Part shown: piece by piece, positions 38,989-60,474 of the stretch
Layout of the letters: every line of letters begins with the position of its first letter
Position numbering within the stretch: the stretch's first letter is position 1
From: Isoetes taiwanensis
Lineage: Eukaryota > Streptophyta > Lycopodiopsida > Isoetales > Isoetaceae
Length of the DNA: 64,000 bases
NCBI GenBank assembly: GCA_021234155.1
Contig: JAJEKV010000034.1
Location: 2,852,001-2,916,000 of the forward strand
Direction of reading: 5' to 3'
Translations under genes and position numbers: made by a program
The notes under the pieces: model-generated
The model's input: the letters and a program-made list of their open reading frames with translations, nothing else
What the model was told of the DNA's origin: nothing
Databases searched by the model: none

Positions 38989-39007
38989 CTACAAGGAGCG
39001 CAGCAAA

Positions 39008-39078
39008 CTTATTACTGTCCGGGTTAAAAAACCCCCGCCCCGAAGGGTTTTCGAGGGAAAAACCGTGGCAGTAATAAG
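39008..39078 (-). ncRNA. Structured three-hairpin RNA module in the LINE I 3' UTR
   Basis: In sense orientation a perfect 10-bp outer stem (CTTATTACTG/CAGTAATAAG) encloses a GGTTTTT..GAAAACC element, a CCC-TTCG-GGG hairpin and a CGGG..CCCG hairpin. The same core with different outer stems lies at 59592-59669 and 60394-60474. There the tetraloop is GAAA instead of TTCG. Function is unknown; a 3' recognition or processing signal is a reasonable guess. Confidence 0.65.
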
Positions 39079-39123
39079 AATGTTGTCAAACTGTACAAGT
39101 ATATATCAATGTATATATACATG

Positions 39124-39405
39124 TCAAGTGTGTGCCCGAGGACACATCTGATCTCGCATGTCCATAACCTCCTGAAGGTATGATCCCAGCACCCGTACGG
39201 ATGCTGTGCTCAATGTCACATGTAATGGCTGGCCAGGCCTGACCAACTCAGCATAGCGCGTCCGAATTTGATCATATGCTGGGCAACTTTGAAGGGTATG
39301 AGATTCATCCTCAATGACTCCCATTTGGCAGCATTGACAGCCCCTGTGCGACTGGAGGCAATGAGTCTGCGCCTTTTCATGGGCAAGTGGGTACGCAGGT
39401 AGCAT
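39124..39405 (-). pseudogene. LINE I ORF2 C-terminal knuckle region
   Basis: The frame reads HCLQSHRGCQCCQMGVIEDE followed by SHTLQSC. It keeps a CX2CX9-10HX4C arrangement like the other LINEs here but with a divergent sequence around it. The end is acidic-poor, unlike the AG-tailed family. Confidence 0.75.
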
Positions 39406-39525
39406 TGCGGGCCTCGTTCCAATGTGGGATTTATGTGGCGCTGATAGTGTGTTGTCTTGACATGTTCAAGGGCATTGGCATCCCAAAGCTTGCTGAGGAA
39501 GCAAGCGTCAAGATATTGCCTCAAG

Positions 39526-41157
39526 CTATGGCGATCGCCTCTGTTTGCATATGTACGCACTGTGTTCTCGCACATTCCATCTAGCCAACCATTGAGCTCT
39601 CTTTTCCCTCCAACAGCCTTGAGGGGCGCCGCGCCCCATTACCATGACATAAGCTAGTTTAGGGAGACAAGCATCGTCCATATTGACCACCTTCGAAAAA
39701 TAGACAATGTGGCTTATCAAGGGGCTCCTCCGAAGAGGCAAGAAACTCGCCTCCCAAAGAGAATTTGATATGGAACTGTGGACTTCACCCCTAGTGCTCG
39801 TACTAAGAAGGCTTTCCTGGACCTGCTCCAAGTCATTCCAAGTAGCAAGTGATACCACTGGACCCCATACTTCCACCCTTCAGATAAAAGGACGGGCTCT
39901 ACTAAGACCTTGAGCAGGTGTGATTGATGGGCCCAATCATACAACTCCACTTTATGACTCTTGTTTTGCATTGCATATAGTGCCTTCCACCGCCATCACC
40001 GTAGCCATATGGATGTGTCCCAAAGGCATAGTAGAAGGAAACTCCACTCCCAAATACTTGTATGTGGATGCAACTTTCACATTCGCCTTGGTAACTGAAG
40101 GAGGGACCCTCGGTGACGGAAGATGATATGAAAACCACCTTAGTCTTGGCCGGGACGCCGCATATTAGTCGCCATGCGAGAATCGTGTCCGGGCATCGAG
40201 ATGTCGTTGCATGTCCGCTGGTGTGTAAGCTAGGAGGTCCACATCATCAAAGATATATTAACTGTCTGATGATGTGATAGAGAAGGTGAGCTCCATCGCC
40301 CCCATTATCAGCAAGCCAGCTCTCCAATTGATCAATGTAAAGCCCAAATAATGTTGGGGAGAGAGGGCATCCCCGACGAACCCCGGATACTACTATCAAA
40401 TGGTTGGCTTGTCTGCTGCAACCAATTCGAGCATCTTTCATATAGCTCGTATTAATCGTGATTCTCGCAAAATCTACAGAACCCCAAATTGTAGCCTTTG
40501 CCCATAGTTTTTCCCCGAGGCACGGTGTCAAACGCCTTCACAAAATCCACAAAACAACAATATAGATCCCGATGGCGGTTCCCGCCGTCTTCAATCGAGT
40601 TCGCAACGTGAAGATGTGGTTAATGGTTGAGTGCCGGTCCAATCCCGCCCGGGTGAGGGCCCGTGACTTCTTGCCCTCCCCGCCCGTCGGCCAACTGCTT
40701 TCGAGAATCCCAATAGCGCTTTTGCAAACACCGAACCGACCATGATTGTTCGGTAATTACCGGGCAAAGGTGTGGGTCACCGCCTTATAGATGGGAACAA
40801 CTCGCTATTGGTCCACTGCCGTGGGAAGCCTTCCCGTAATGCCTTGTTGAACAAGGCTACAAGATCTGGTATTATGGACGGCCCCGCCCCACTTAAGCAA
40901 TTCTCGCCGCATACCATCCAAGTCCGGGGCTTTTTCCATTGGCAAGACGTTGTAAGCCTTTGTTCCACGTCCGATCTCGGATTTCCAAAGACCGGGCCTT
41001 CTTGCAAGGGTAATGCTGCATGTGCACCCTGAGGGTCATATAGCTGTTGCAAGTATTGCCTCCACTGCTCGGGAGTGATATTCCCTGTGGGCTGTATTGG
41101 CTTTCTAAGAGCCCTTCTCCAGAAGGTCCTGGGGTGACGTTCCAGGAGGTAAAACAT
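39526..41157 (-). pseudogene. LINE I reverse transcriptase region, fragmented
   Basis: Frame 40247-40531 has RRGCPLSPTLFGLYIDQLES (motif B). Frame 40777-41157 has FWRRALRKPIQPTGNITPEQ and RQWTNSELFPSI (the part before the polymerase). Frames 39717-39971 and 39526-39876 cover VLVEPVLLSEGWKYG and what follows. The YADD box near 40230 is not readable. Multiple frameshifts. Confidence 0.78.
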
Positions 41158-41545
41158 TTCCCTTTGAAACAGACTACAACATATGTATTAAGACTAGTTC
41201 TTTTGCTTGATTAATACAAGTGGTAAATTTGACTAGTGGCTTAATACTACAATAGCTTCTAAAGGTCATTAATACAAGGGATATCTGAAGTTGTTATGAT
41301 GTAAGACATAGATGTCTGGTTGCTTGGTAACCAATTTAAGACAGTGTGTACTGGCTACAGTTTGAAATTTGATTTTTCTCGTAGTTGCTTGATTACAAAG
41401 TTACCTTTGTCTCAAATATTATATAGGATAACAGACTAAAGGAACACAAGTACCAAGTTTGAATGCGTTCAAATTTTTGGATTGATAATACAGTGGATGG
41501 ATTGACTGAAACTGATGCTGCTCTAGAATACTACGTTAGGCCCCC

Positions 41546-41577
<32 letters not shown>

Positions 41578-43872
41578 GTTGTTGGGACGCATACTTTAGG
41601 CATTGGCATGCTATTATGTAAGTCCACCAATTTCAGGGGAGGTTATCACCTTCAAACAATTTTTTTAGGTTCTTTTGCCCTATTGTGCATTTCATAAGCA
41701 TTTCCATTTGCCTTCCTCTGATACATAAGGCATAGTCCAGATACTACCCTTTGTTTCTACGTGTGCGCCTCTAATATACAAATCCGGCCAAGGCCTCTGA
41801 TGCCAACTACCTCCAGGCTTTTCTTGCTGATAAATAGAATAGAATAGTTTACCACTAATATGCGGTTGCAGATCCATACATTGTGTCCAATTCGGATTAT
41901 CTCAGGCAGATGCGATGAAGTAACTTCATGGTGCTATTATAAAAGCAGAAAAAACATGGAGGCTAATTGGATAGATTGCAATGCAAGCTATTGCACAAAT
42001 ATATCAGCCCAAAGGCTTCATTCCAGGTCATTTATAGATTGCTTGAATATTGGCATGATGAGGACACAAATAATGTCTTGAGCATACGAAAACAAGGTGT
42101 GTTACACATATAACATGACAGGAAATGCATGGCATCCAGCAGTTCTAGTAGTTTATGGTTGATGCCAAATAGCACAAGTTATTATAGCTTGGTTTCTTTA
42201 TTGGATTAACCTCTTCTATTTATTTAATCTATTCTACTATTTTATATCAGACCAGTTGAGTTCCTTGTAATATGGATGCATTTGAATAATCTAGATGAGA
42301 CATTATTGTTGTGATTTGCTGCTACAAATGTTGTTGCAAATTCAAACATTAAAAAGCTAATATTTAATGGTTTTTGTAGTGTTGACATGAGAAATGTCAT
42401 TGTTCAGATTCTACTGCTGTATATATTCAAAATTGATGAACTAATATAATGATTAGCCGTTCAAATTGAATTGTTTCGCGCATTGGCTTTGAGACATATA
42501 TTTTTAACAAAACACGGTGAAGGGTTATACGCCGTGGTGTTCCATAGCTTACTTGTTAGTCCTTTCATTGTTACCTTGCTCAGGCTAACATTTGTCTGAT
42601 TGATTGCAGGTAACCGGGACTCCACCTCCTTGTTTCTGTTCATTTAGGATGATGTTACAAGTTATACATGATGTGATGATTATTTGAAAAATCCAGATAA
42701 GTAGTCTGAAATAAGTAGAATAGCAAGAATGAATTTGCTCCAAGATATTATGTCTTAATGCGTATATTATATCTTAATGCACAGGACAACATTTACTTGA
42801 CTCAACATGGCTATGCATTTGACAAGCAAGGAAAAATGATAAGAGATGTATTATGAAGGTTTCTTACAAGATCTCTTATAAGCTAGTTTGTTGGATCAAG
42901 TCTTATATTCATTGAAGCTTGTAGCCCACAATGATAAACGAAGAACAACGAATATGAGATGTTTCTGTTTTACACTATCTTATAGAAGGTACAAAAATGG
43001 AATGAAATATGTTTATATGAGGACAGGTACTTTGTTCTATCCATCTACATGAATTTAGATAATAGCATATCATAGGGATTTTTTTGATTATTTTGTAATG
43101 TCTTTGACATTATTATTATTTTACTTCAACATTTCAACATGTTGTAGTCCATGACGAGATAATCTTAGTGCAGTTTGCTGGTTATGTTTATCTATCCTAT
43201 TTTTGAATTCACTATAATTTGAACTTAAATTTGACTTGTACATAACACATGTTTATGGATACAGGCTTTGTGAACTTGAACTTGACTTGTACATAGCTCA
43301 TATTTCTGGACATGGGTTTCTTGAGATAAAAAGTCTCTTTGATTATATATAAAGATAAAAAATTGTCTTGGTGGCTAGTTCAAGTTGAAAAATCAATATC
43401 CAAGTCTTGGCCTAAAGAAAGTTGCACCTGTTCTCTTTAGGGCTGCTTATTGAACTCTAAGTCCTCAATCTGCAGATTAGATGGTAAGGTTAAAGTCTTG
43501 AAGAAAGATTTAAGGTTTTTTTTTTTTTGAAGGACGAAAAAAAAGGTTTACTAATCAAGAATAAAATCATCTGTGTAAGCACAAGAAGATGCATCTGGAA
43601 CATGAACCTGAAGCAATGTGTACTTACTTCAACAGAGGAAACTAGTTGTAAACATTCATATGCTATATCTTATACCTTATTCGACTTTATATACTTGGGT
43701 TAAGTAAAATTTATAGAGACAACCATAGCTAACGCTATTTTTCTTTAGTATCTAAGTCTTGACTCGCCTCACTTCCAAGAGAACGGATCTCTCTTAGCCC
43801 AACCAACTAGGGACTGCCATGCAGCACCCCTCTAGACCATGGGTTTGGATTTTTTTTAACCACTCCTCCAGA
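41158..43872. other. AT-rich intergenic DNA, no gene seen
   Basis: No frame longer than about 75 codons and no domain. Frame 41692-41877 (minus, 61 codons, with GGSWHQRPWPDLYIRGAH) has exon-like composition but is not recognised. A C6T26 homopolymer run lies at about 41541-41572. No terminal repeats found. Confidence 0.55.
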
Positions 43873-44826: not shown

Positions 44827-44834
44827 TCTGGGAA

Positions 44835-45975: not shown

Positions 45976-45983
45976 TCTGGGAA

Positions 45984-46884
45984 TCCCCACTAAACCAATA
46001 ACTAGAATACAATGTTGAAGAACAGAGGCAGCAGTTCTATAGACTAGCAATGGAGGAGAATGAAGCCATGCGGCAAGGGCAAAAGTGGCCAAAAAGATCC
46101 ATTCACGCTTGATGGGTTTAGTGTGAAGCTTGGGTAAAAAGTCTATGCGAGTCACTACTGACTAAATAAAATCTCTCCCTAGGAAAATAGCTTTTATTAC
46201 TCACGAAAGCCACTAAAACAATATGCATCTCATGACACTCCGAAGGGAAAACTAAAGGAAGCAAATTTTAAAAGTTCGACTATAAACAAAAGAATATGTT
46301 ATTTCCATTATAACCATAAGGGTGGACAAGTCTTAAGCATATATCCGACGAAGTCGACCAAAGGAATGCTGTCCATATCCAATAGTGGTGAAAAAATGGA
46401 TCGAAAAGCAATAGAAGAAATATTGGTATTGACGTAGGCAATGGATTGGAATGGCAAAAATGTTCTGAGAAGGGCCAACATCAAGTACGATCAACAAGTA
46501 GGCTAATATTGTCCAATTTAGTGAGGCCAATCCTACCGTGAATAAGTATGCTAATAACTAGTGACGCCCAAACTATCGGACAAGCTCCTCTTCAACTTGA
46601 GATAATCCAATGTCACCATCTGAGGCAATACAGAGATCAGGGCGATTTAAAATATCTGAACCAAACTACCTGCCAACAACATGAAACACATATAATAAGT
46701 ATTTGAAACTCACAAGAACATGAGAAAAAACAATTAATATCAGACAGAGGCAATATGATCCAAGGGGGTACAAGATGTTTAGCAAGAGGAGTTAGAAGAG
46801 AGAGACTTATTAGATCCAAGATGGTAGTCTGAAAACTAAATCCCTACAATATTCACATAACTTCCACAAAGACGACATCTTGTA
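45984..46884. other. AT-rich spacer, no gene seen
   Basis: No frame above 65 codons of interest. A block near 46735-46800 (GAGGCAATATGATCC and on) has a weak counterpart at about 60895-60950, outside the other end of the T-rich region. Confidence 0.5.
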
Positions 46885-46941
46885 TCCCATCGATCCGAGC
46901 CATCGGATCGTCATTCTGGGAAGGGACGAGCGCCTATATTA
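46885..46941 (+). promoter_or_regulatory. Half dyad and TATA-like box
   Basis: CGATCCGA-GCCA-TCGGATCG hairpin, ATTCTGGGAAGGGAC, GAGCGCC and TATATTA in the same spacing as at 58920-58975. The outer 5' arm is absent. Confidence 0.55.
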
Positions 46942-47911
46942 GGCCATTTCCGTTTTCAGCCCGGTTATCGGCGTCTTCTCACAGCAGCTCTTCTTCTCCT
47001 CTCGTGGCTTCCCATTGCTTCTTCATACTCTCGGTTGTCCCTTGCTTTCCTGCCTGTCGTTGATACTTCGGCGTCATTTCACCCCATCTGACCTATCTTC
47101 CTCCCCTCCTGCTTTCTTCCTATCCACATCCGTTTTCTTATTTTTTCATTCATGTCAAATGAGCTACTCATGTTATGATGTTTTTTCTTCAGATCCAGGT
47201 TCTAGATGCTCTCGGTCTGTCGAATTTGTTTTGTAAATTTTGATTCGTTTTCTTTCTAATGATGCATGCCAATTCATGTGCACGAACTACTTTCTTGCAT
47301 GCTCACATATTTCTCGAGCTGACTTTTCCTACCGTGTTTTCTGAGGATCCTTTTCTGGTTTGCTTGTGTTTTTTTGTGGTTTAATTTCCTTGGGGGCTCT
47401 GCTCATGCATAGATGGAGGTTTCGATTATGGGTATGGGTTTTCTCTGTTTTGCTCTTGATACATGCAGTTGGCTATGGAGCAACACAAATCTTGGGCATC
47501 GGCGGAATCTTATCTTTCCATGGAAGATGGCAGATTATACGGTTGGTTTTGCAGCACAAGGTTTTGCATTGCCGCTCTGCATTCGGCTGTGTTAAATAAC
47601 TTCGTTTCCTTCTTTTTCCTATCCTCTCCTCTGTACTTGTCGAGATCTGGCATAGCCAAGGCGGTTCCGGCCATTTGATTGTCGACCTATGTCCGTGGTT
47701 TTTCTCGCATACTCTTCTTCTTCGCCCATTGTCCCGCTTTACAATTTGGAAATCTGCCTTGATCAAGAACCGAACTGGAGTGGATGTGGTCATTTGGAGC
47801 ATTCGACGGATCTCGATCTTGAATCGTTCTTTGGTCGTCCGGGTGTTGTAGCATCGATTGTGGGCAAATAGATGGCGCTTTTTCCTAATGTCTTTTTCCC
47901 GCCTTCACTCC

Positions 47912-47930
47912 CTAAGCCGATCCGGCTTAG
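47912..47930 (+). other. Perfect 8-bp hairpin
   Basis: CTAAGCCG-ATC-CGGCTTAG. The flanking CCCTAA and TTAGGG could extend it as a second stem. Confidence 0.5.
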
Positions 47931-48077
47931 CTATTTAGGGTTCTTGATGCCGCTAATTCTCGGCCATTTCGACCAATCTCTTTTTTCTTGCCATAGTCTG
48001 TAGATGGCTCGCCCTTTTCTCTACAGCCCTGCTTCTTCGCTAGATTTGTTTTTTCTTCCTCCAAATCGTTATGCGAA

Positions 48078-48097
48078 AGTGACATCTTTATGTCACT
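48078..48097 (+). other. Perfect 8-bp hairpin with CTTT loop
   Basis: AGTGACAT-CTTT-ATGTCACT. A tRNA-B-box-like GGTTCGAACTC follows at about 48151, but no tRNA fold was found. Confidence 0.45.
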
Positions 48098-48194
48098 CAT
48101 TGATGGATAGCTCCTTGGGCAGGCCGTTGCCCGTCTTATTTGAAGATGCTGGTTCGAACTCTGGGTATGCCCGCATTATCATTTTAATGTTACA

Positions 48195-48223
48195 CTAGTA
48201 ACGGGTGCCCGGCGTTGCCGGGC
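48195..48223 (-). mobile_element. Helitron 3' terminus
   Basis: On the minus strand: a 7-bp GC hairpin (GCCCGGC-AAC-GCCGGGC), then 12 bases ending in CTAG, then a T of the flanking DNA. Hairpin, CTRR end and insertion between A and T are the standard Helitron 3' signature. The element would extend to higher coordinates. Its 5' TC end could not be placed with confidence, but the return of T-rich family sequence around 54000 gives a rough limit. Confidence 0.8.
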
Positions 48224-51200
48224 ATAGATACATTCTATAACACCTTGCAAAGTTTGAAAGATGGCGAATAGAGAAATCCAAGAAGGCAGATGATGTCAAA
48301 TTGATTTGGCAAAAGTGGTATTAATATTAATAATAGATGTTGCAACTTTTGAAAGTTGTATAGAATATGAAATTGTATAGAAAAGAGTGGTTAATCATGA
48401 TCATTGACATCATTATCACAACCTTAGGCAAAGTGGTGTTGAAGAAGGCATTTACTAAACGAAGTGTCAAGTTAAAGTAGGTATGTGATGCAATAGAAAT
48501 ATACAATCTTCATCATCATAATTATCAGAAAATGTATTATAACCTATCATACATTGATCTTTTAAGATACAACAAAAACTAAAATAAGAAACTTATTTGC
48601 AAACATGGACTTTAGCCATCCTTGGTGATCTTGGAGCATGTGGGAAGTGCAAATGAGATCAATTTTTAATTCATTTTTTCATTTAGAATGGTTTATGCTA
48701 ATCTTGCTTCTTGTTGAAGTCTTTAGACATATCAATGTACCATATCTAGTTCAATATTCAAGGAAGCAAAATGGGGAGGGGATAAATAAAGAGGCATATA
48801 TTCATATTATAGTAAGGAATCTTAAGTCTTATTGTTGAGAACATGGACAATGTCGAGGAAATATTTACTAAAGGCGTCTATTGTCCAAAGACTTTCAAAA
48901 CATCAAGAGCATTCTTGGGGCAATAGGAGGTATTTGCATTTCTTGTTAATTTAGATTTATGCTGGTACAAAATATGCTATCGATACAAACCTAATTATAC
49001 ATGACTTGACTGGCGAATATTATACATGACTGGACTGGCGAATGGAGTGTAGGTCTTAATCTTCTAGAATAGGCAAACCTAAAATATAAAACTTAACAAT
49101 GCAAATTAATCTCTTTAGTGAGGAACCATGCAATACATTTCTAGCCATTCAAAGATTCCATCATATCTTTATATGTAATAAAAAAATAAATGTCTAATAG
49201 GTCAGGTATTACATGTTTCATCTTACCTACGTAAACACTCACATTAGGATAACATTCTGCAAGCTGCACAATAAAACAATGATTTTGGTCAACATTTCTG
49301 ACCAAGTTTAAATGCCCCCTTGCAATGGAAGAATATTGTAAGGAGATCAATGTGGGTGGAAGATTGTCGAGAGATGATAATGAACTGTAGTTCGTTGCAT
49401 AACGAACATGAAAACATGGGTGGACTTGCTATGGAAAAATCCAGCACAACAATTTGATAGTTGATTCCACCAAATGAGGTACCAATAGCTTATGTAGATT
49501 GGACACAATTGAAATTCTAGAAATCCATATCTTTCTTAAAGCTTAGGAGATAACAGAAATGCTGAAATGCTGACTTGGGCCTACATGCCTCTTTGCCATG
49601 GAAGAAACTTCAGATCCTCATATTGCGTACAAACATTGTGCAAGGGGCACACTAAAATAATAATGTCAGGCATCTTTGATCAAATGCACCTTCAATATTG
49701 TAAGAAGACTAACACAATGCAAGCTTGCTGGGAGATATGATGGATAAGGAGCTCTGTACAACCAAGTCTTATGGGCCCAAATATGTTACTACATAGGAAG
49801 CTGCTGTAAAAAAATTCTGAACTCAGCTTTCATGCTAGAAACTGGGCCATATTATATCAGTTCTTCTGTGTCACCAATGTGTTGCATCACCTGGGCAGAG
49901 AGTTGATTCTCGGAAAGAGCGCTTAGGAAGTCCATAGTGAAGCTAATTATAATTATGGGACTGGCAAAGTCAACAAAATTCAAAATTGTAAACATGCACG
50001 AAATCCATGTCTTAGAAAAAATCTGAAGTCTCTAGCAAAAATGGAGTAAGAACATTTTTGAAGCAATGAAGCAGCATCTGTTTAATGTTCCTGAGTTTGC
50101 AGAAAATGAAGCAATGAAGCAGCATCTGTTTACTGTTCCTGAGTTTGCAGCCATTGACCTTTTCTGGTGTGGTCATGAAGTGCATGAATTCCGTCGTGGA
50201 TTTCTCTAAGTGCTTGGTGGTCAAATACAAATTCATATAATAGAGAATTTAATCATTGATGTAATGGATAAGGAGCAATGGTGAAGATAACGAAATTGAT
50301 AATTGTAGACATGAACTTGAAAAGACGGTCTTGGAAAGGGACTCACCTGTGGAAGTTATGAGTAGCCACATCTCTTGCACCATATTCCAACCCTTCCGCA
50401 TATGGAAAAAGAGATATTCCTAGATTGGAAACTATAGGATTGTAATGAAGAAAAATATCTACTTACATAATGTTGTGAACGTTATGTAGATATCAGTGGA
50501 AGCATTTATTTCGTGTTTTTGTTGGTAGGAGGTGAGGTAGGGGAGGTGGACATTTGTGCTAACAATTACTAAGGGCATAAAATTGTGAGCATAAAATCGA
50601 GTTGTGGACTTATAAGCATATAAATCACAATATATTATAGTGAAGTATGTGGAGTTGAAAATGAGATTTGTGAGAGATCTTAATAACTTTTCCATTCATA
50701 ACATGAAAAATGCAATGATGTAGTGTCTAAAAAGCATTTTTATTGTATTGAGTTTTCCTAATGGCCTAAGATGTATATCTACAAAGTGCAATCCTCCAAT
50801 TGATCATAGCATTGGACTCTAATCCTCAAGGCAACTTGCAATAGGCAACTCATGATCAATGTTATTGTATAAGTGTACTTGAAGTGGAGGAGCGTGGCCC
50901 CCTACAGTCGGCGTTAGTTGAGAGCCGCTTGTCATATGTCCACATGTGTAAATGTAAGACCCCATTATACTACATTTTTTATTGTTTATGGTTTGTGTTC
51001 ATCTAGATATTATAATTGTTAAACTCAATTTTCATTTAAATGAAGCTATCTGTTTTAGTGTAAGGTCTACCATAGAAGTATTAAGTTGTATTTAAGTTGT
51101 AATTATGGGGCAACCACACCAAAATAGTACACGGGCAAGACATGATGAAATTGCAAAGTTCGTTATTTGTCTTTCTCATCATCACTTTTAAAAGGTGTGG

Positions 51201-51849
51201 CAGTGTGTTACATGTCAGGCTGAAAGATGAAGTTGTGCAAGGTGGCTGATTGAACCTAGCATTTAATTGCAAGCTTATGTACCACATAGAGCTTTTACCT
51301 TCATGCAACTATGACGCCATCCTTGTTTCTTCATTTCCAACAACCACTCTTGAATTCTATCAAAGTGTTGGGGTTGGCGCCAGCAATTGAATGGCCTAGA
51401 TTGAGAATTCTGATCATATGCTGCAAAAGTTAGCTCATAACATGAGAAGCAAAAATTGAGACAAATAGTACAACATTATGAAACTTCAACATCCAGTTTG
51501 ATCTCTGGTGTAATTCATTTTCTCATCCTGCAAAAAAGGGATATAATGAAATGGATGAATTCGTAAAAAGAATTTGCAAGCCTGAAAGATTATCTAATAA
51601 AAATGAATGGAATTAGGCCCTTGCCAACTGCTGGAGCACATTCTACTCCCAGCATCATAGTCCCAAAGGCAAGGCCTTCCATAGATTTTTATAAGCCCCA
51701 TTAGGGTACTTATTCCGATCCACGAAACGAACGGTCAAATTACTCGAGTTCACAGTTTGAAGCTTGCTGCATTGGTATCCTGCATGCATGGAGGAGCCAA
51801 TTTTAAGTGCTTGATAAACAACATTCGATTCCATATATAGAACTACAAT
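48224..51849. other. Presumed Helitron interior, AT-rich, no helicase seen
   Basis: No frame above about 78 codons and no Rep/helicase motif, so a non-autonomous Helitron is likely. A segment at about 49780-49945 is repeated at 52795-52960, and one at 50175-50280 at 52690-52780, which means an internal duplication. Another short tandem copy (CATCTGTTTAATGTTCCTGAG and variant) is at 50077-50148. Confidence 0.5.
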
Positions 51850-52014
51850 AAGTAATCAAAATCCACAGAGTTTGTCCGGACCAATGCTGGCAATCTAGAA
51901 TCCTTATTATTTGGGGATGTCTTTTTCTCAGTAGAAGAGTTACTTGGAGCAGACGACGCTTCACCTTGTGATGGAGCAAAAGCTCTCCCATATAACGACA
52001 TACTTATATGTATT
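51850..52014 (-). pseudogene. Captured exon following the C2 exon
   Basis: On the minus strand an acceptor TTTATCAG is followed by EIHISMSLYGRAFAPSQGEA and a Ser/Thr-rich tail ending near SVDFDYLL. The phase fits the donor of the exon at 52275-52460, with the split Gly codon restored. The end is unclear: either a stop or a GT donor lies near 51850. It belongs to the same captured gene fragment. Confidence 0.6.
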
Positions 52015-52274
52015 TCACCTGATAAACAACAAATGGATCGTCATATGATGACATAGGTATGTGCAGCATAATGATATTACTTATTTGTTTCTGTAAAGGA
52101 GCGGTGGTTCTATAAAATAAATTAAACCTTTACTAACTTGCTTATTCTGAGTGCATATAAGATCCTTGCATCCAATTCAAAGATGAATAATTCCACAGTG
52201 GGAGACTGCTATTAAAAATATGAAATGCTACTGCAATGGAGTTCTTTACTGACAAATAGAAAGATCTCTTTACC

Positions 52275-52460
52275 AGTAATAGTGGATTTTGACTTGCTAC
52301 TCCGTTTCTGAAGTGCATACCAGGCAGGCAGCAACGTTTGATTTTCTGCATCAAGAATCTCAGACACTGGAACCTTCACCTGACCAAGAAAATCATTCGT
52401 GAAGCAATCCTTATCCCTTTGGTGAACATAAAATAGAAGGGATCGCTTCACATTGCTGAG
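52275..52460 (-). pseudogene. Captured C2-domain exon (C2-GRAM-type protein)
   Basis: On the minus strand the exon reads KRSLLFYVHQRDKDCFTNDF, then LGQVKVPVSEILDAEN, then WYALQKRSSKSKSTITG, and ends at a GTAAAG donor. The pattern of a (N/T)DDF-type motif, GQVKVPVS and WY.LQ is typical of the C2 domain in plant C2 and GRAM domain proteins (family memory, not searched). C2 domains bind membranes in a calcium-dependent way. Only two exons are visible. No start codon, GRAM domain or further exons are seen, so this is a fragment, probably carried by the Helitron. Confidence 0.7.
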
Positions 52461-54020
52461 GTGGCTTAAAGATGAGTAATATCAATTTGAGTTTATTGTG
52501 CCTACTCATCTTCCAGATTCATTAGAAGCAACAGACAGAAATTTAAACAATAGATAACCTGCCCATACTCATATGTTGCATATATTTATAGCTATAAAAT
52601 GTAGAATATGCTGAGCAACAATGAAATTAACTATATGTGACTGCCAGGAACAAACCTAGCTGGCTACACATGGTAAGCACAACCACTGTCATGAATTTCT
52701 CTAAGTTCTTGAAGGCCAAATACAAATTCATGTAATAGAGAACTTAATCATTAATCTGATGGATAAAGAGCTGTATACAACCAATCCCAAATGTGCTGCC
52801 ACATAGGAAGGCATTGTAAGAGAGAAAATGTTGAACCCAGCTTTTATGTTACAAACTGGGGCCATATTATATTAGCTCTTCTGTGCCAGCAATGTGTTGC
52901 ATTACCTGGGCAGAGGGTTTATTCTCAGAAAGAGTGCTTAGGAAGTTCATAGTGAAGCTTGGCCAAAACTTGCAAGAAAATATTCTTCATGGCCTGGCCT
53001 GCATGCCGAGAATTGGGGCAAAATCCACCTGCATAAACTTGTCCAATATCTCATTTCGAAATGATAGAGGAACCCAGTGTTCGGCTTTTTGGAGAACCCT
53101 CAACTTTTACTGGGGACAATGAGAGATTGATAGACAATAAGCAAAACCTGAATTCAAGGGGAATGCACCATCCTAGATATTCAAGATCTAATTATTCAAA
53201 ACCTGAATGTGGGAAAAGCATTAGAGAAGATACATGCTTACTTGCACGCTGAATATAAAGGGAACAAAGAAAATGGAAGTGCTTCTGCTGCTCTATGCTC
53301 AGCTCAGTAGAAAGAAGCACCAAGGAATGAATGAAGTATCTGCAAGCAAAACCTATTCCATCTGCTCCACATGTACCTACATTGAGATGATGACTTCTAA
53401 TCATGAACTCCAAATGGAATATAGATGTTTAGCATACCTTGGCCTCGCAATATTAGAGCAGCCATGTGCAGTGCCATTCAAAATTTAAAAGCTTCAGAAT
53501 GGGCATCTGCTGGATAAGGAGAAGACAATAAGCATAAAGCCTGAGGTGAAGATATAGAATTGCTGCATAGAACCCTGGATATGCAGAGCCCATCTGCCGT
53601 CAAACGCTCAAACACACCCTCAGAAACCCCGGAGCTAGCTGTAAGCCAAGGTACTGGTCGAAATTGCAACCTAAAGGCCGATTCATCCCTCCAAATTGAA
53701 AAATGCCATCTATTGCACATAAATTTACAAAGCACCTGATGAACAAAGCATGCCAATCCAATTGGCGAACATGCATGGAGCGACAGCTGCAAGAAGGGAT
53801 ATGGGCATCTGCTAAAGTCTCGGAATCGATAAGGCAAGGCAACTCAAAAACCTAGAATTTGGTAATCAAAGGCAAAGCCACAAACTCGATTTTTGGAATA
53901 CCTGAAAAGTTTTCCGGCAGCTAAAAGCCTCTAGACCTTAGAAACCTAACCTGAAAAAAAAATCTAAAAAGTTTTCGGCATGTCGGAAAAACCAAATTTA
54001 AACAATAGATTCTCGGTTTG
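52461..54020. other. AT-rich region right of the C2 exons, no gene assigned
   Basis: Frames of up to 119 codons (53478-53837, minus) are open but not recognised. The block 52690-52960 repeats sequence from 49780-50280. The right end of the Helitron should lie in or near this stretch. Confidence 0.45.
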
Positions 54021-54026
54021 CACTGT

Positions 54027-54320
54027 TGTTTAATTTCAACTTCCATCTCTTTCCTAGGTTATTGTCAACCACCACGTTTTTCTTTTCAAAATCGACTCTT
54101 TTCCGTTAATTATGGCTTTACACCTTTCTAGTGTGTTAGTTCCCTTATAAGTTGCTACACGTCACTTTTGTTGTTATACACGTTCACCACTTAATTTCAA
54201 CTTCTTCCTAGGTTATTGTCAACCCCCACATTTTTATTTTCACAATCGACTCTTTTCAGTTTATTATGGCTTTACACCTTTATCGTGTGTTAGTTCCCTT
54301 GTGAGTTGCTACACGTCACT
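54027..54320. repeat. Tandem repeat, about 160-bp unit, two copies
   Basis: TTTAATTTCAACTTC.. CCTAGGTTATTGTCAACC recurs after about 160 bp, and GTGTGTTAGTTCCCTT and TTGCTACACGTCACTT occur in both copies. Confidence 0.8.
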
Positions 54321-55904
54321 TCTCTAGCCTCCTTTGCCATCCCAATCTCCGGCATGTGCCTTCTCCATGTCCCTGATCCGGCTCGCTTGTCCTTTCTCCT
54401 TTTGTTCATTTACATTAGAGCTTACATTCATCGCATATTCCTCTTTACTTATGGGGATTTGTATTGGTATTTACTTACGTGCTTGGCATCGCATCCTTCA
54501 ACTTTTTGCTTATCGGAATTCCTCTATTCTACTATATGCATACCCATATTCATTTGGTCCGTTTAGTCCATCTTGTTTCTTTCATATTTGATCTTCTATT
54601 TACACCCTACATTTCTTAACCCATTGCACTATTGCATCGCGTTTGTTACTCTGGCCTTTTTGTGGTCTTTTGCTCTTTGGAGCACATCTTTATTTTTATT
54701 TTTCCTTTTTCTCGTGTCTAGCTTATGTTGCCTTTTTGTCAACCTCACCATGCGTCAGCATCTGGGATTTGCCAATGTTAAATTTCTAATCTTGTGGTGC
54801 TCTTTTATTCTCTTCGGTTCATTCTCATTTGTGCTTTTGAGGTTGAACACATTACTACGCAACAATCATGGTAACTTCTCTTGGCGGGTTTCTAGCTTGG
54901 CACATACGGATAGACCTTGGGATTTTCATTGTGCAAATGTGGTTTTCGCATGTTTCCTATTTGCTGCATTTGCTCCCATGTGCATTTCATTTCGTACTCC
55001 TTAGCGTAATATTTTGGGGTCATTTGTTAAGATTCCTCTTGTTACATAATCAATTTTGTCTAGATAATTCCCGTTGGTTTGGAATTTCTTTAGGATAATG
55101 GGAGAGCTTTGGCCTTTTGAACTTATGGGTGCATTTGCATGGGTTTAACTTGATAATTAATGTGTTTTTCCATGAGGTGTGTTTTTGCACGTGTATATTG
55201 CTTTTTGAATATGGGGCGATTCTGGTCCTTATGGCATATTATTCTACATCTATTGTCCTTTTCATCTCTGGCACCTTATGTTTTCGTCAGTCTTGTTGTT
55301 TCCCTTGCTATTATCCCTATGTTGCATTCACGTGATCTATTTTGATAGCGGTCTTCTCATTTTTAGGGAAGGTCATCTTCACTGTTGAGTTGTTTTTGTG
55401 GGCAATATTCGGAATCTTCTGCCAACTTTAGCGTATTGTTAGTTAAAAGTTTTACTTCTCACCTATGCCTCTGGGGTATGCAATAAGGGTACCTAATCTT
55501 GGGATGTTCTGGCTTCTATCCGACGATCTATCTTCGTTTATTTACATATTGAATTTCATGTTCATTTCATACATTTTTTTGGTCATAGCTCCCGACCAAG
55601 TTGTTTCTAGACCACATTCCCTATTTGTCTTGCGTTACCCATGTTTACATCTAGACATAAGATTGGATTTGTCTTGTTTGGTTTGAGTTTGTATACGTGG
55701 TGTTATCGATAGATATCGCATTTTAGTGTTTACATGACTTTGGAATAAGTTGGCTCAATTTTGGTGGTTGTTCCCTATTTTTTGTGGGTGGTGTTGTTTC
55801 TTTCCACCCTGATGGGGACACAAATTTCTATTTATCATGGTTTTTTCTTCCACCCGCTGGGTGCCGCTTTTTCTCCACCCTCCGGGTGATGCTATCTTCT
55901 CTTT

Positions 55905-56230
55905 TTCATGTATTGATGATTTTCCTCATTACTAATGGCTCACATCGGTTTGAGTTGTTGTGCAGCTTGCCGCTTCGCCGTCATGCACATTCATTCGGCC
56001 CTATCATTAGGCGTTCTTTTATATTTTACATTTCAACAGGCGTTCTTATTTTTCTATCATGTCCCTTCCGATAGTCATTGTGTTTTTGGTTCATTTATCA
56101 TGTCCACTATTGTTTTTTGCTTTAGTATTTCAGACCCTACATATGGCCCTAGCTTTATTTTTAATCCTTTATAGTCATTCTATTTCATTTATCCTTTTTT
56201 ACTATCTGGCTTACATCCTTGCACTCCATC
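55905..56230 (+). repeat. Inner repeat of the T-rich family, plus-strand copy
   Basis: Close reverse-complement match to 35900-36260 and 36740-37100, over CGTCATGCACATTCATTCGG, CATGTCCCTTCCGATAG and CCTACATATGGCCCTAGC. Confidence 0.85.
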
Positions 56231-56539
56231 CTGACCTCTCTTCCTGTCTTGGTCTGGTAGTGCTCCTTCAATATTTTTCTGCAGGTATCTCTGGCTGGAT
56301 GCACAGGAGGGGTTAGCGCACTTCTCCTCATTCTAGACTTGGCGTTCTATCTTGCGCTTGGGATTTCGATTTGACTTTGATTCACCTTCTTTGCCGTCTT
56401 CGCTCTTTCCACTCTTCCTTCCACACAACTTTTCCTCCGCCCATAACCATCTCTACTCTTTTGTCAACTTGGCCCACTTTGATCCTTTTCGGGCTCGGCT
56501 ATAGCGATTTGACTTCCTCTTTCGGGTTTGCCTCCAAAA

Positions 56540-56540
56540 C

Positions 56541-56629
<89 letters not shown>
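56540..56629. repeat. (CT)n microsatellite
   Basis: CT array of about 90 bp. Upstream is GGGTTTGCCTCCAAAACG, homologous in sense to the scraps at 14513 and 35512. Confidence 0.95.
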
Positions 56630-56631
<2 letters not shown>

Positions 56632-57926
56632 TTTGTCGTTCCATTTAAATTTTTTGAGTCCTTTTCTGTCCCATTACAGTTTTTTGCGACATGTTTTCCA
56701 CCTCTTGTCCTTTGTGGTTAAATTTCTTATATGTATATTATGTATTTGGTTTCGAGCTATACTTGGATTCGAATATTTGGGGTTGCGTTTAAGATTTTTT
56801 CTTCTTTTTTGGCATGATCATCCGGGAGCTTTAGTGTTTGTTGGTTCCTTTTTTCACTTTATTAGCGCAATTATTTTGTTACTTCACGAAGTTGCATTCT
56901 CTGTTCTTGAGCATGGGTGATGGGTTTATTGTTGTTCTCATGTACAAGGCAATTAAGGGATTTGTCATCCGGTGCTTCATTTGGTTATGAATCTCTTTTC
57001 CTATGTTTCTTTTTACATTTTTTGTTTGAGTTGCCCATGTGGTTTCTTAATATATAGCACGATCTTATAATTGTTTTCCCATGGTGGGTTCGTATTCTTT
57101 TCTCCTTTGCAATTGTGTTTTCTATGGGATTTCGATGCTTCGCACTATTCTATTGTTGCTGCGCTATTCAGATTACTGTGTTATATCTCTTTTATCTTTT
57201 CTGGATCCTAAATAAGGTGATTCTATTTCTTTTTTCTCTGCGGGGTTTTCTATTTGGATGTTGCCATTGTTTCGTATTTTATATGCTACCTCATCATGGT
57301 TTTATTTCCTTTTATTGCATATATCATGTTTATGATTCTGCTACCTATCTCGTTTTGTGATTTATTGGCATCATATATTGGGTTCCACTTTGTCTTTTTT
57401 ACGTCTATCCATTTTTGCACATTACCATGGGTACGTTTTTCCTCTTTCTCTTATTTCCGCAGTTATTTGTCATTTTTCCTCATTATTCATCATTCTTGTT
57501 GATCACTTGGGGGCTTGCATGCACGTGGGCTTCCTTTTATTCACTACCTGCGTTAACTCGGTTGTTTTTCCGCACCTTCCAGCGTTGGGTTTCCTTGTTT
57601 TTTGGCATAGGGGTCATTCCCAGGGTCTCATTTTTCCTGTTGTTATTGTCTATGATGTGTTTTTTTGTCTGCCACATGCACGATTGCACTTTGTTTTTGA
57701 CAACATATGTTGGGTTGCACTTTGTCTTCTTTATGTCTATGCATTTTTACATTCCCATGGGTAAGTTTTTTCCTCTTTGCCTTATTATCTCAGTTATTTG
57801 TTATTCTTCCTTATTATTTATCGTTATTGTTTATTCTTTTTGGGGATCCATGATGCAGGGTTCCTTTGTTGATTTATCACCGTCTAGATATTGGCCACAT
57901 GTTCGGAAGGAATAATAGCCACATTC

Positions 57927-58012
57927 ACGGACTTCAGTTCGTAGCCACATTCACGGACTTCGGTCCGTAATCTGTATTCAAATAAGAAAACTCTCTACGG
58001 ACATAAGTCCGT
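57927..58012 (+). ncRNA. Three successive hairpins on an ACGGAC stem
   Basis: ACGGAC-TTCA-GTTCGT (57927), ACGGAC-TTCG-GTCCGT (57953) and ACGGAC-ATAA-GTCCGT (57997). The stem is kept, the loops vary (one a UUCG tetraloop), and the first has a G-U wobble in this orientation. A homologue of the third is at 36394. Confidence 0.55.
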
Positions 58013-58904
58013 GATCTGCATATGTGTATTTATGCGCGTGCGTGGTTTGTTTTTCATCGCCTTGTTGCCGTTCTCGTTGGCATGCCGGGGCGCCTCCTTA
58101 GATTCGTCATCGTGGCGGCGTGCTTTTCTTTTCATTGTTCTCTAATGTTCTTCCTTTTTTCAGGTCATTGAAGCCCGATGCAGTCATACCGTGCACTTAG
58201 GCTCTTCTCCTTGACTTCACTTTCTTCCCCCGGCTGCTCCATATTGGCTGGTGCTTTCGTCGTCAACGCGAAGCTTCCCTCTCGATTGAACCCGACTCTT
58301 TAGTCTGCCTCTCGTCGGGCTCGCCCCCCTCGTACCTTTCTTCCTCTCCTGCCTCAGCATGTACGCTCTATTGTTCTCCATTTCGCGCATCTCGCGGCTT
58401 TTTCTTTTCCCTCTCTGGCATGTTGATGTTCTTATCCGCCACTCCAAACGAGACCAACTTGCCCGTGGTCATCGTTTTCTTTAGCTTCGCTTGCCTTCGT
58501 TAGCTTTGCCCGTCACTATCCTTCGGTAGCCTAATTTCTACCGGTTCTTTTCATCTCCTCGATCCTCCGTCCGACGGCCCTCTTTTTCGCTCCTCTCCTT
58601 CCTCTCTGCGTCCTTTATCCTATCCGACTGCCCGGGGGTGGTGGCGGGAGTGTCTTCTTGCTATCGGCTTAAATCCATCCTAGTATGGTACGCATTACGC
58701 TTTCGTGTGGCCGGGACCTCGGCGGGCTGCCGCTCGGGGGTTCCACATGATCTTTGCTTGGCAGCTCCGCGATTCGTGGGCTCCTCTTCTTCTCACTTCC
58801 GCTATGTGCTTCGCGACCCAACTCAACACCTGGAGGTTTCGCGACGACTGGGCTTATAGTTGAGGAAGTCCTTTGGTAGTCGGCCGGTTTTGTGTCTCTC
58901 GCGA

Positions 58905-58961
58905 GTCCCTTCCCAGAATCCCATCGATCCGAGCCATCGGATCGTCATTCTGGGAAGGGAC
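58905..58961 (+). promoter_or_regulatory. 57-bp dyad upstream of a TATA-like box, copy 1
   Basis: Outer arms GTCCCTTCCCAGAAT and ATTCTGGGAAGGGAC pair over 15 bp. The inner arms CGATCCGA and TCGGATCG pair around GCCA. TATATTA follows at 58969, 8 bp from the dyad. The arrangement suggests a promoter with a dyad binding site or an RNA/DNA hairpin at an element junction. Confidence 0.65.
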
Positions 58962-59591
58962 GAGCGCCTATATTAGGCCATTTTCGTTTTCAGCCCGGTT
59001 ATCGGCGTCTTCTCACAGCAACTCTTCTTCTCCTCTCGTGGCTTCCCTCCCTTCCCGCCCTGCTGCGTGGGTGCATGAGTCTTTTTTCATTTGTATTTTT
59101 TTGTTGTTCATGCACTCTTTGTTGTTCTCCACCTGTGGGTGTTGCTATTCTCTTGTTTATGTTTCCTCAGCATCCTGCTGCATTATTCTCCACCTACGGG
59201 TGATGCTGTTTATTTCCACCTCGAGGGTGATGCAGATTTTTACGTAATGGTTTTCCACCCGCTGGGTGATGCTATCTTTTTCTGTTATGTTCTTTTTTCA
59301 CCTATTTTCCTTCTTGGTGCAGCTTGTTTTTCATGGCTATGCTTGTTTGTTTTCTCTAACCATTTACGGGTGTTTTTTGGGGAGTTTTTTTGGTATTGCT
59401 TGCGGGGATTCCGCCAGATCTTCCGCCCCGTCTTTGGGGTCTCTTTGTATTTGTTCGCCATCACCCATCTCCTTCGGTTCTCCATGGACACATTCGGGGG
59501 TTCTTTTGCCGTTTTCTGGGGTCGTGCTCTATTTTGCATTCGCCATCGACCCGTTTCTCTCCGTTCTCCGGGCAACACATTTAAGGTTGTT
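58962..59591 (+). other. T-rich unit 1 body, no gene
   Basis: About 630 bp between the TATA-like box and the structured module. It includes a triplicated CCACC..GGGTGATGCT-type phrase at about 59190-59275. Open frames such as 59091-59780 follow from T-richness. Confidence 0.45.
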
Positions 59592-59669
59592 GGTGACTAT
59601 TTCTCATTAGGGTTTTCCTCGAAAACCCGAAAGGGCGGGGTTTTTTATCCCGATGAGAAGTTGTCGCCA
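59592..59669 (+). ncRNA. Structured three-hairpin module, copy in unit 1
   Basis: Outer stem GGTGAC/GTCGCC (one U-G wobble) plus TTCTCAT/ATGAGAA, separated by a 3x3 internal loop. Inside are GGGTTTT-TCCTCGAAAACCC-type pairing, CCC-GAAA-GGG and CGGG..CCCG. The core is nearly identical to 60411-60457 and to the LINE I module at 39008-39078, while the outer stems are unrelated. Confidence 0.7.
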
Positions 59670-59706
59670 TTACCCTTCTATATTGCCTCGGCACATTTCT
59701 TTTTAT

Positions 59707-59743
59707 GGGGTAGTCCGATATTGTTCCTATGGTCGGCTACCCC
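59707..59743 (+). other. Hairpin GGGGTAG/CTACCCC
   Basis: Seven-pair outer stem with a CCGA/TCGG inner stem. Unit 2 has GTGGGTAG/CTATCCAC with CGCA/TGCG in the same place (60553-60583). In both, a TGATG/GATGAATGA-type stretch follows. Confidence 0.5.
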
Positions 59744-60006
59744 TCTCTATTCTTCCAAACATTGTATACTGCTGATGTGATGAATGACAAGCCTAGGCGC
59801 TTCCTCTTCTCTCTCAGCAGTACCTTATTCTCTTTGAATTGTTTCCCAGGCAGGGGAGGGGCTTCTCCCTGCTTGGTTTGGCCAATTTGGCGTTTCTTTC
59901 TTGCTGTCCTTTTTCGGCCTTTAGCCTTCGTCCTGTGACCTTTGTCCTCGATCCTAGTTTGTAAGGAAGTCCTTTGGTATTCGGGCGGTTTGTTGGTTTC
60001 ATGCGA
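59744..60006 (+). other. End of T-rich unit 1
   Basis: Spacer between hairpin and next dyad. It includes GAAGTCCTTTGGTA, which also stands before the dyad at 58905. No gene. Confidence 0.45.
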
Positions 60007-60063
60007 GTCCCATTCTAGAATTCCATCGATCCGAGACATCGGATCGCCATTCTAGAATGGGAC
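60007..60063 (+). promoter_or_regulatory. 57-bp dyad upstream of a TATA-like box, copy 2
   Basis: Outer arms GTCCCATTCTAGAAT and ATTCTAGAATGGGAC pair over 15 bp. The inner arms CGATCCGA/TCGGATCG are as in copy 1. Five positions of each outer arm differ from copy 1 with pairing kept. A GCATGCATG/CATGCATGC hairpin (60067-60090) and TATTTTAGGC follow. Confidence 0.65.
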
Positions 60064-60393
60064 GAGCATGCATGTTTTGCATGCATGCGGGCGGCGCATG
60101 CCCATTCGGTTGGGAGTTCGCTATTTTAGGCGATTACGCATCAACATCTCATCGGCTTCCTCTTCTCTCCAAGAAGATACCTTATTCTCTTTGAACCCAC
60201 CCTCCCCCTCCCTTCTTTGTTTTGTATTTTTTATCGCGTGGCACGCGTAATCACCCCCTCCACGGGAGGTTCGTTTTGTCTTGTTGTTTTGTTGGTGATG
60301 TGCAGGTACAGGTTAGCGAGCGGCATCTGTTTCAACTTTTCCATTCGTGGGTTTTGGGAGCGATTTTTATGCCTTGCGTTTGTCCAAGCCCCT
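60064..60393 (+). other. T-rich unit 2 body, no gene
   Basis: About 330 bp from dyad to structured module, shorter than in unit 1. Contains ACTCTTCTC-type leader-like text but no coding. Confidence 0.45.
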
Positions 60394-60474
60394 TGCCGAA
60401 GGCTTATCGCTAGGGTTTTTCCTCGAAAACCCGAAAGGGCGGGGTTTTTTAATCCCGATGATAAGCTTTCGGCA
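60394..60474 (+). ncRNA. Structured three-hairpin module, copy in unit 2
   Basis: Outer stem TGCCGAAGGCTTATC/GATAAGCTTTCGGCA (15 bp with one G-U). Core: GGGTTTTT..GAAAACCC, CCC-GAAA-GGG, CGGGG..TCCCG. The core matches unit 1 almost base for base while the outer stem is entirely different and longer. Confidence 0.72.

Follow-up and report, generated by a model that had tools for sequence, protein, structure and literature searches.

The window analysed here, a stretch of 64,000 nt from a contig of Isoetes taiwanensis, contains a decayed LINE on the minus strand and, on the plus strand, elements of two non-coding families, Y and X1, each with one copy of a conserved RNA module (Table 1). As the original prediction had it, the core of the module is kept at three places: with up to three mismatches, only these three matches were found in the window and none in 100 shuffles. 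The swap of tetraloops was likewise confirmed, with UUCG in copy 1 and GAAA in copies 2 and 3, and the arms of the outer stem pair in all three copies (fold z-scores of -4.6, -5.2 and -5.9 for copies 1, 2 and 3). The module is, however, one long stem-loop and not the three hairpins that had been proposed, two of which are mutually exclusive because GGGUUUU/AAAACCC and CCC-NNNN-GGG need the same CCC. From the base upwards it consists of an outer stem, a GG/CC clamp, facing tracts of U4-5 and U6, an upper stem CC(C)UCG/CGGGG(G), a bulged AAAA and a CCC-tetraloop-GGG cap. The 5' tract of copy 2, earlier given as U5, is a U4. The outer stems had also been described as sharing no sequence, but copies 2 and 3 are homologous and in the same register. 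The Monte Carlo comparison of these two copies took 15 of the 18 tabulated pairs, the outermost ones; four of them are changed on both sides, and they form in 15/15 cases in copy 3 and 14/15 in copy 2. Three pairs nearer the clamp, outside this count, form 3/3 in copy 2 and 2/3 in copy 3.

Table 1. Positions in the window of the three module copies and of the elements that carry them
Feature	Position	Strand	Basis or remark
Decayed LINE coding region upstream of copy 1	39216..41187	-	frame fragments with GCPLSPTLFGLYIDQLESWLADNGGDGAHLLY
Putative ENE copy 1 (LINE subfamily A)	39008..39078	-	sequence, patterns, folds
Copy 1, core	39027-39056	-	pattern search
Copy 1, outer stem CTTATTACTG/CAGTAATAAG, then GG/CC clamp	within 39008..39078	-
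Copy 1, U5	39058-39062	-
Copy 1, U6	39026-39031	-
Copy 1, upper stem CCCUCG with CGGGGG	39052-39057 with 39032-39037	-
Copy 1, AAAA bulge	39048-39051	-
Copy 1, cap CCC-UUCG-GGG	39038-39047	-
LINE 3'-terminal hairpin GGTCCCATAGGCCGATTGGCCTCAGTGGAC	38960..38989	-	z -3.0 (fold of 38955-38992)
Encoded A7 run, candidate third strand of triple helix	38950..38956	-
TCATTC short-repeat tail (LINE end)	38927..38949	-
Family Y element with copy 2, probable extent	46885..59795	+	start 46885 presumed
Putative ENE copy 2 (family Y)	59592..59669	+	sequence, patterns, folds
Copy 2, core	59617-59646	+	pattern search
Copy 2, U4; U6	59613-59616; 59641-59646	+
Copy 2, upper stem	59617-59621 with 59636-59640	+
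Copy 2, AAAA; cap CCC-GAAA-GGG	59622-59625; 59626-59635	+
Second hairpin downstream of copy 2	59707..59743	+	z -4.0
Non-coding family X1 element	59796..60668	+	homology limits against genome copies
Putative ENE copy 3 (family X1)	60394..60474	+	sequence, patterns, folds
Copy 3, core	60421-60450	+	pattern search
Copy 3, U5; U6	60416-60420; 60445-60450	+
Copy 3, upper stem	60421-60425 with 60440-60444	+
Copy 3, AAAA; cap CCC-GAAA-GGG	60426-60429; 60430-60439	+
Second hairpin downstream of copy 3	60553..60583	+	z -4.1

Copy 1 lies downstream of the coding region of the decayed LINE, which agrees with the earlier placement of one copy in a LINE 3' end. The GCPLSPTLFGLYIDQLESWLADNGGDGAHLLY words of this LINE recur in the genome copy L181, which matches RVT_1 at 2e-15. 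The two longest fragments in the window had no Pfam match, and a protein search with one of them, of 140 aa, found no homologue. The best named matches of the reverse transcriptase of a neighbouring window LINE were from liverworts (Calypogeia, Riccia), yew and a fern, at 39-41% identity; for the reverse transcriptase part of genome copy L175 the best match reached 47%, and the only named one was a Chlorella protein.

The X1 element of the window is shorter on its 5' side than other copies and has module copy 3 about 190 nt upstream of its end, near which there is no A-run of five or more. No Pfam match was obtained for its open frame 60130-60531 or for six open frames of at least 120 aa in the family Y element. 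Homology of the latter to other copies ends at 59795, and a promoter-like piece at 46884-47013 recurs at 58918-59047 (98.5%). The hairpins that follow copies 2 and 3 differ in sequence and both pair; the family X loci that were aligned with the window copy retain the one after copy 3, apart from L185, which has lost part of it to a deletion. Target-site duplications of family X were looked for in seven copies. The flank repeats found were of 94 bp (90%) in L182, of 13 bp in L201, with a motif that recurs nearby, and of 74 bp in L186, not abutting the element start and also recurring; no target-site duplication was found in L190, L197, L203 and L206.

The module had been said not to be a recognised ribozyme, and the window indeed gave no match to any Rfam release 15 family, ribozymes among them, at the gathering cut-off. 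The weaker matches (E up to 10) included PsrR1 over copy 2 (20.9 bits, cut-off 42) and, at 11.7 bits against a cut-off of 75, OxyS over copy 1. No tRNA genes were found in the window at cut-off, and a search of viral contigs with the core pattern returned one phage match, without the U runs. A mechanical ENE descriptor gave four matches in the window, copies 2 and 3 among them, compared with 0-4 in 20 shuffles; we do not count this loose descriptor as evidence, because the shuffles gave up to as many and copy 1 was missed.

Three disjoint core patterns matched 2,765 (the pattern given for copy 1), 2,954 and 2,137 places in the 1.66 Gb genome of the host, and with the reversed patterns there was no match. 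In LINEs (four subfamilies) the sampled matches sit immediately ahead of the 3' end, and in non-coding elements they fall within the 3' part. At the fifth position of the upper stem none of the 2,137 places has a C; among the 100 matches listed the base there was always U, facing A in 97 and G (a wobble) in 3, with no mismatches. The third pair of the cap is C-G or U-A, and one LINE subfamily has double changes from C-G to U-A in the upper stem and the cap. A loose pattern with a purine after CC gave 65 matches, of which half may be chance (32 in the controls), and eight of the 65 had a variant stem and cap, leading to subfamily D.

Pairing of the outer stem was evaluated in two alignments. 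The first (A3) holds 14 rows, both window copies 2 and 3 and 12 of 30 loci that were picked by eye for distinct arms, omitting L198 (3' arm lost) and the LINE- or W-type loci L188, L199 and L208. In this alignment 96.6% of the cells were paired, 9 of 29 pairs were changed on both sides, and the covariation score was 0.279 compared with 0.112 (sd 0.015) after shuffling, a score reached in none of 500 shuffles; on a one-column slide, pairing dropped to 54% or 51%. A test of 28 out of 32 rows (the same four loci omitted) comprised 19 distinct arm pairs, with 324/342 cells paired and at most 303 in 2,000 shuffles. The LINE alignment (A2) holds the window copy and 42 of 48 LINE loci, without L139, L140, L143 and L154 (damaged flank or arm) and the near duplicates L161 and L162. 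It was 95.1% paired and scored 0.108 against 0.083 shuffled (0/500), but only 3 of 26 pairs were changed on both sides, which 190 of 500 shuffles also reached, and at one outer pair 21 of the 40 distinct rows do not pair. Because the loci were chosen by core patterns, the conservation of the core is circular in A2 and A3 and in most of A4, an alignment of 12 hand-picked representatives. The outer stem is free in sequence yet held to pairing, and the apical part is nearly fixed. Many copies with outer stems that do not covary had been named as the outcome speaking against selection on RNA folding; the opposite was found, many genomic copies with covarying outer stems, and such selection is strongly supported.

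Outside the search pattern, a U.G wobble of fixed orientation is kept in 14/14 rows of A3 (columns 46/93) and in 18 of the 19 arm pairs. This is not favoured in a DNA-level palindrome or transposon end that has no RNA role, an explanation to which the multi-copy, transposon-borne nature of the module and further inverted repeats nearby (58900-58972 and 59999-60071) might otherwise point. The module is, moreover, internal to the elements rather than at their ends, and we regard this explanation as scarcely credible.

In an ENE (element for nuclear expression), a poly(A) tail or an A-rich tract is taken up into a U.A-U triple helix. Contrary to the earlier view of the motif as unrecognised, an architecture of this type is recognisable in the module. 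A tract of U4-5 faces one of U5-6 in all 12 family representatives, and in 12/12 the tracts sit between G-C pairs, GG/CC below and CC/GG above (A3 pairs 50/90 and 56/79), the upper of which belonged to the search patterns. Pair 34/78 of A2, which flanks the U tracts, is G-C in 37 rows and unpaired in three, and the clamp is broken in the single copies L150, L151, L198, L208 and L223. For the ENE of Evade, U tracts between G-C pairs were shown by mutation to be essential, as section 5 of PMC12501189 describes. We conclude that the module is very probably an ENE-type RNA stability element, as yet putative, in the 3' part of retrotransposon RNAs. Most likely, its two facing U runs would grip the run of A that ends these RNAs and so protect them from decay. 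The A run would enter the U-rich internal loop and pair with the 3' U6 by Watson-Crick and with the 5' U tract by Hoogsteen bonds, giving a helix of about 4-5 U.A-U triples. The RNA 3' end would thereby be hidden from deadenylases and exonucleases, and more full-length RNA would survive for reverse transcription. In families X, Y and Z the A strand would be a poly(A) tail; for LINEs a candidate is the encoded stretch of about 5-8 A that follows the terminal hairpin.

The predicted minimum free energy fold of copies 2 and 3 is the GGGUUUU/AAAACCC hairpin, better than the ENE stem by 0.3 and 1.9 kcal, respectively, and the same hairpin is the best fold in 6/8 subfamily D copies. With both U tracts and AAAA held open, the best fold is favoured over the ENE form by 3.3, 1.3 and 2.3 kcal in copies 1, 2 and 3. 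The working form could in principle be this hairpin, or the module could alternate between the hairpin and the ENE form, with a regulatory or terminator-like role. The third pair of the hairpin, G-C in X/Y/Z and A-U in D, is replaced by a mismatch in the LINE subfamilies A, B and C and in W. The hairpin also requires neither the double change in the upper stem (97/100 among the matches listed) nor the additional C and G that pair in LINE A-C, which makes such a role quite improbable. The module is not a simple terminator, because the family X sequence runs on roughly 155-240 nt beyond the core. A pairing of AAAACCC with GGGUUUU, possible in all three window copies, would underlie a self-contained triplex with the bulged AAAA as third strand on U6 and the 5' U tract in the groove. 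The fetched copies do have AAAA, but it was part of the fetching patterns and is missing from some loose-pattern matches. As this duplex costs 3.3 to 4.3 kcal relative to the best fold, any gain from the triplex left aside, and sacrifices the covarying upper stem, we consider the triplex highly improbable.

In LINEs an encoded run of 4-8 A follows the module in 45 of 48 sampled copies of subfamilies A-C (A5-A8 in 42), and a run of A6-A8 in 7/8 subfamily D copies; hairpins like the terminal one of the window LINE occur in genome LINE copies. Three LINE ends in the window that have no ENE show no run of four or more A. Since the A-run occurs with the ENE and is absent from the ENE-less ends, the module of the LINEs, as in MALAT1, may be self-contained. 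The module precedes the A-run by 62-82 nt, counted from the core, in 44 parsed LINE copies, and the core is common to thousands of non-LINE-type places, as a SINE shares a LINE tail; both would also suit a docking structure for the LINE reverse transcriptase at the RNA 3' end, with the non-coding families as parasites of the enzyme. We find this unlikely. LINEs own a separate terminal hairpin adjoining their end, a like hairpin is kept alone in the ENE-less window LINEs, family X is without such a hairpin and tail, and neither is seen within 95 nt downstream of the core in families Y and Z; nor does docking give a reason for two U tracts between G-C pairs. Returning to the ENE, we tentatively suggest, at somewhat less than even chances for the two parts jointly, that a LINE lineage, with DNA copies that end in short repeats and not in poly(A), may protect its RNA with a built-in MALAT1-like triplex formed by an ENE and an encoded run of about 5-8 A, and that unrelated non-coding elements may have taken up the ENE cassette with its fixed apical domain, which would have turned it into a structured RNA module present many thousands of times in this genome.

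Tycowski et al. reportedly described ENEs of plant and fungal transposons in 2016. The double-domain ENE of TWIFB1 has two U-rich domains, whereas the module has one U-rich loop; a second one is absent, and the second interruption of the stem is the AAAA bulge. TWIFB1 is a rice hAT transposon, likewise a transposon-borne case, and its double-domain ENE binds poly(A), according to PMC10855403, PMC11625349 and PMC10078130. The ENE of the Arabidopsis retrotransposon Evade/Copia93 shares with the module a U-rich internal loop between G-C pairs in the 3' UTR of a retrotransposon RNA; Evade is an LTR element, and its ENE is placed between the ORF and the LTR (PMC12501189). The module differs from it in being found in LINEs and non-coding elements, at thousands of places, and in its fixed apical domain of AAAA bulge and tetraloop cap. 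The layout of the LINE version resembles MALAT1 and MEN-beta, RNAs without poly(A) in which a U-rich loop is combined with an encoded A-rich tract; the triple helix of MALAT1 is made of nine U.A-U triples and one C+.G-C triple, with a 15-nt linker (PMC11411715 and PMC12846552), whereas the module has room for about five triples and the LINE spacing of 62-82 nt includes a hairpin.

Triple-helix stability elements occur in viral RNAs and in mammalian lncRNAs such as MALAT1, and section 3 of PMC12501189 counts around 200 ENE motifs, mostly from plants and fungi and strongly tied to LTR retrotransposons. Elements of this kind are already known from plant and fungal transposons, and what is distinctive here is that one conserved subclass, putatively ENE, occupies thousands of places in a single genome, within LINEs as well as other elements. 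Thousands of near-identical copies amount to a natural alignment of sufficient depth to show which positions are important. They also allow two questions to be tested: whether a self-made triple helix completes the RNAs of retrotransposons that lack poly(A) ends, and whether the cassette is traded between elements.

The cores of all three modules in the window (copy 1 in a LINE of subfamily A, copies 2 and 3 in the non-coding families Y and X1) were found, on rechecking of sequence and coordinates, where the original prediction had placed them. A 30-base core pattern with up to 3 mismatches matched the 64 kb window at exactly these three places, and gave 0 matches in 100 dinucleotide-preserving shuffles of it. 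All three copies folded far better than shuffled sequences (z of -4.6, -5.2 and -5.9). From the outside inward, the module consists of an outer stem, a GG(G)/CC(C) clamp, facing U tracts (5' U5, or U4 in copy 2, opposite U6 and then one or two A), an upper stem, an AAAA bulge on the 5' side and a CCC-tetraloop-GGG cap. The upper stem is CCUCG/CGGGG in copies 2 and 3 and CCCUCG/CGGGGG in copy 1, which has an extra C and an extra G on opposite strands. The proposed parse into three hairpins had to be abandoned, since GGGUUUU/AAAACCC and CCC-NNNN-GGG use the same CCC and are therefore mutually exclusive.

The module is very probably an element for nuclear expression (ENE), a U-rich stem-loop and candidate holder of an A run in a U.A-U triple helix. 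In the Arabidopsis LTR retrotransposon Evade the triplex needed U tracts and adjoining G-C pairs alike, and deletion of the ENE made transcripts less stable and lowered both extrachromosomal DNA and new insertions (PMC12501189). U tracts and flanking G-C pairs are also present in the Isoetes module, in the expected place, and by analogy we infer that it may have a role in its carrier elements. Folding predictions give the ENE upper stem and cap as the best structure of copy 1, although two U per side are then pulled into the lower stem. In copies 2 and 3 the rival hairpin GGGUUUU/AAAACCC is predicted to be the best fold, with the ENE stem 0.3 and 1.9 kcal above it. Forcing both U tracts and the A4 open was calculated to cost copies 1, 2 and 3, respectively, 3.3, 1.3 and 2.3 kcal relative to their best folds. 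Among the passages listed by searches of a literature collection to which the 2016 survey of transposon ENEs did not belong, there was neither an ENE in LINEs nor one with such an apical domain.

The outer stems of copies 2 and 3 share the same pairing register. Over their 15 outermost pairs the 5' arms differ at 7 bases and the 3' arms at 4, with double-sided changes in 4 pairs, and 15/15 positions are paired in copy 3 and 14/15 in copy 2; random placement of an equal number of changes was never as good (0/200,000). Across 19 distinct arm pairs of families X, Y and Z, 324 of 342 cells were paired (mean 281, maximum 303 in 2,000 shuffles). In the 14-row alignment of these families 96.6% of cells were paired, 9 of 29 pairs had changed on both sides (reached by 1/500 shuffles) and the covariation score was 0.279 versus 0.112 in shuffles (sd 0.015; 0/500); the number of pair types was reached by 81/500. 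A one-column shift of the 3' arm lowered pairing to 54% or 51%. The LINE alignment (window copy and 42 loci) was 95.1% paired, and none of 500 shuffles reached its score of 0.108 (0.083 in shuffles). Double-sided changes were limited to 3 of its 26 pairs, a number attained by 190/500 shuffles, and columns 20/91 failed to pair in 21 of the 40 distinct rows.

Neither alignment varies in the upper stem or the cap, because the loci were picked by exact core. A test freer of this selection bias is the search with pattern TTTTCCNTDGAAAACCNNNNNNGGCNGGGG, in which position 5 of the upper stem is any base except C and its partner is unconstrained. Among the 100 matches listed of 2,137, position 5 was U in all 100, opposite A in 97 and G in 3, and in the 97 the third cap pair was U-A too; these double changes represent few events, not 97, because all belong to one subfamily. 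In 12 hand-picked representatives (9 distinct), 2 inner-helix pairs had changed on both sides (score reached by 2/500 shuffles, double-change count by 83/500), and this covariation on its own is modest.

In the 1.658-Gb assembly, exact matches were found at 1,408 + 1,357 places for pattern TTTTTCCNTCGAAAACCCNNNNGGGCGGGG, 1,438 + 1,516 for TTTTCCTCGAAAACCCNNNNGGGCGGGG and 1,055 + 1,082 for TTTTCCNTDGAAAACCNNNNNNGGCNGGGG, and the reversed control patterns had 0 matches each. Since the patterns are mutually exclusive, the sum is 7,856 places, and these exact-core counts are lower bounds for family sizes. The matches listed, which are the first ones of each search, have tetraloops such as UUCG, UUCA, UUUG, GAAA, AAAA and UUUC. 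A further core variant between U tracts, CCACCAAATAACCCTTCGGGGCGGGGAGGGGG with near relatives, occurs at G000 C523, C1031 and C1042 and is possibly a further ENE family.

All 48 inspected places of pattern TTTTTCCNTCGAAAACCCNNNNGGGCGGGG (8 + 40 loci, out of 2,765) were LINEs. Sorting by eye gave subfamilies A-C, between which some loci (L159, L163, L167, L169) are intermediate. The usual order was ENE, terminal hairpin, A-run and short repeats (e.g. TCATTC, CTATT, CTTC). A parser located the A-run 62-82 nt past the core in 44/48 copies; of the four missed, L167 has an A-run, L148 has lost it, and L139 and L151 are without the LINE end. The run was A5-A8 in 42/48 copies and A4 in L137, L142 and L150. 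Subfamily D, which makes up most of the TTTTCCNTDGAAAACCNNNNNNGGCNGGGG matches, had the same order in 7/8 fetched loci, with a run of A6-A8. Upstream of the module, L181 encodes a reverse transcriptase (Pfam RVT_1, 2e-15), the match in L175 was under the Pfam cut-off (8e-5, 22.9 of 29.6 bits), and one tested frame of L170 gave no match. Similarity of the reverse transcriptase of a neighbouring LINE suggests that the host is a land plant. LINE-like frames of at least 150 aa lay near the core in 5 of 12 copies of 8.4-8.7 kb and were absent from the other 7. Three ENE-less LINE ends in the window run on after hairpin-like sequence as GTAATAATG, CAATAAAC and CATAAATAC, where A never occurs four or more times in succession. 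Presence of the A-run in 45/48 (subfamilies A-C) and 7/8 (subfamily D) LINEs with the ENE, versus 0/3 without it in a small comparison set from other LINE lineages, suggests from sequence that the two occur jointly. The length of the run, 5-8 A, fits that of the U5 and U6 tracts, and the co-occurrence leads us to propose a candidate self-contained triple helix in the LINE RNA. Long (CT)n/(AG)n microsatellites start no more than a few dozen bases past the 3' ends of minus-strand LINEs and look as if grown out of LINE tail repeats.

Features of the window
Feature	Position	Strand	Detail
Module copy 1	39008-39078	-	LINE subfamily A
Module copy 2	59592-59669	+	family Y
Module copy 3	60394-60474	+	family X1
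Promoter-like piece with TATA-like box	46884-47013, 58918-59047, 38397-38523 (-)		98.5% and 90% identity between places
Long inverted repeats	58900-58972, 59999-60071		z -6.6, -9.5
ENE-less LINE 3' ends	~15,410, ~14,650, ~10,260	-	
(CT)n/(AG)n microsatellites	10203-10272, 15292-15382, 14418-14631		
Mini-hairpin repeats	59130-59280		non-coding element

Families X, Y and Z had no recognised coding capacity, and seven open frames of the window stretch were without a Pfam match. Family X elements are about 1 kb long; the seven aligned at the 5' side begin with C(C/G)CATCGAT and repeat a promoter-like piece, the second time before the ENE, which in the window copy lies about 190 nt before the end. 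The promoter-like piece of the table starts sharply at or near CCCATCGATCC. Repeats flanked family X copies at L182 (94 bp), L186 (74 bp) and L201 (13 bp), and none were found in four other copies checked. The two family W loci L188 and L213 were 97.3% identical across the 628 bp of L213 that were covered, and among the matches listed W matched other loci in the ENE and inner outer stem, with the exception of one 81-bp match to L172. The inverted repeats of family X form at the junction between the end of one unit and the promoter-like start of the next, and the two in the window carry compensating changes in their outer arms around a fixed inner CGATCCGA/TCGGATCG. The mini-hairpins repeated in a non-coding element have the form CACC-Nn-GGGTG(A)TGC, with variable loops.
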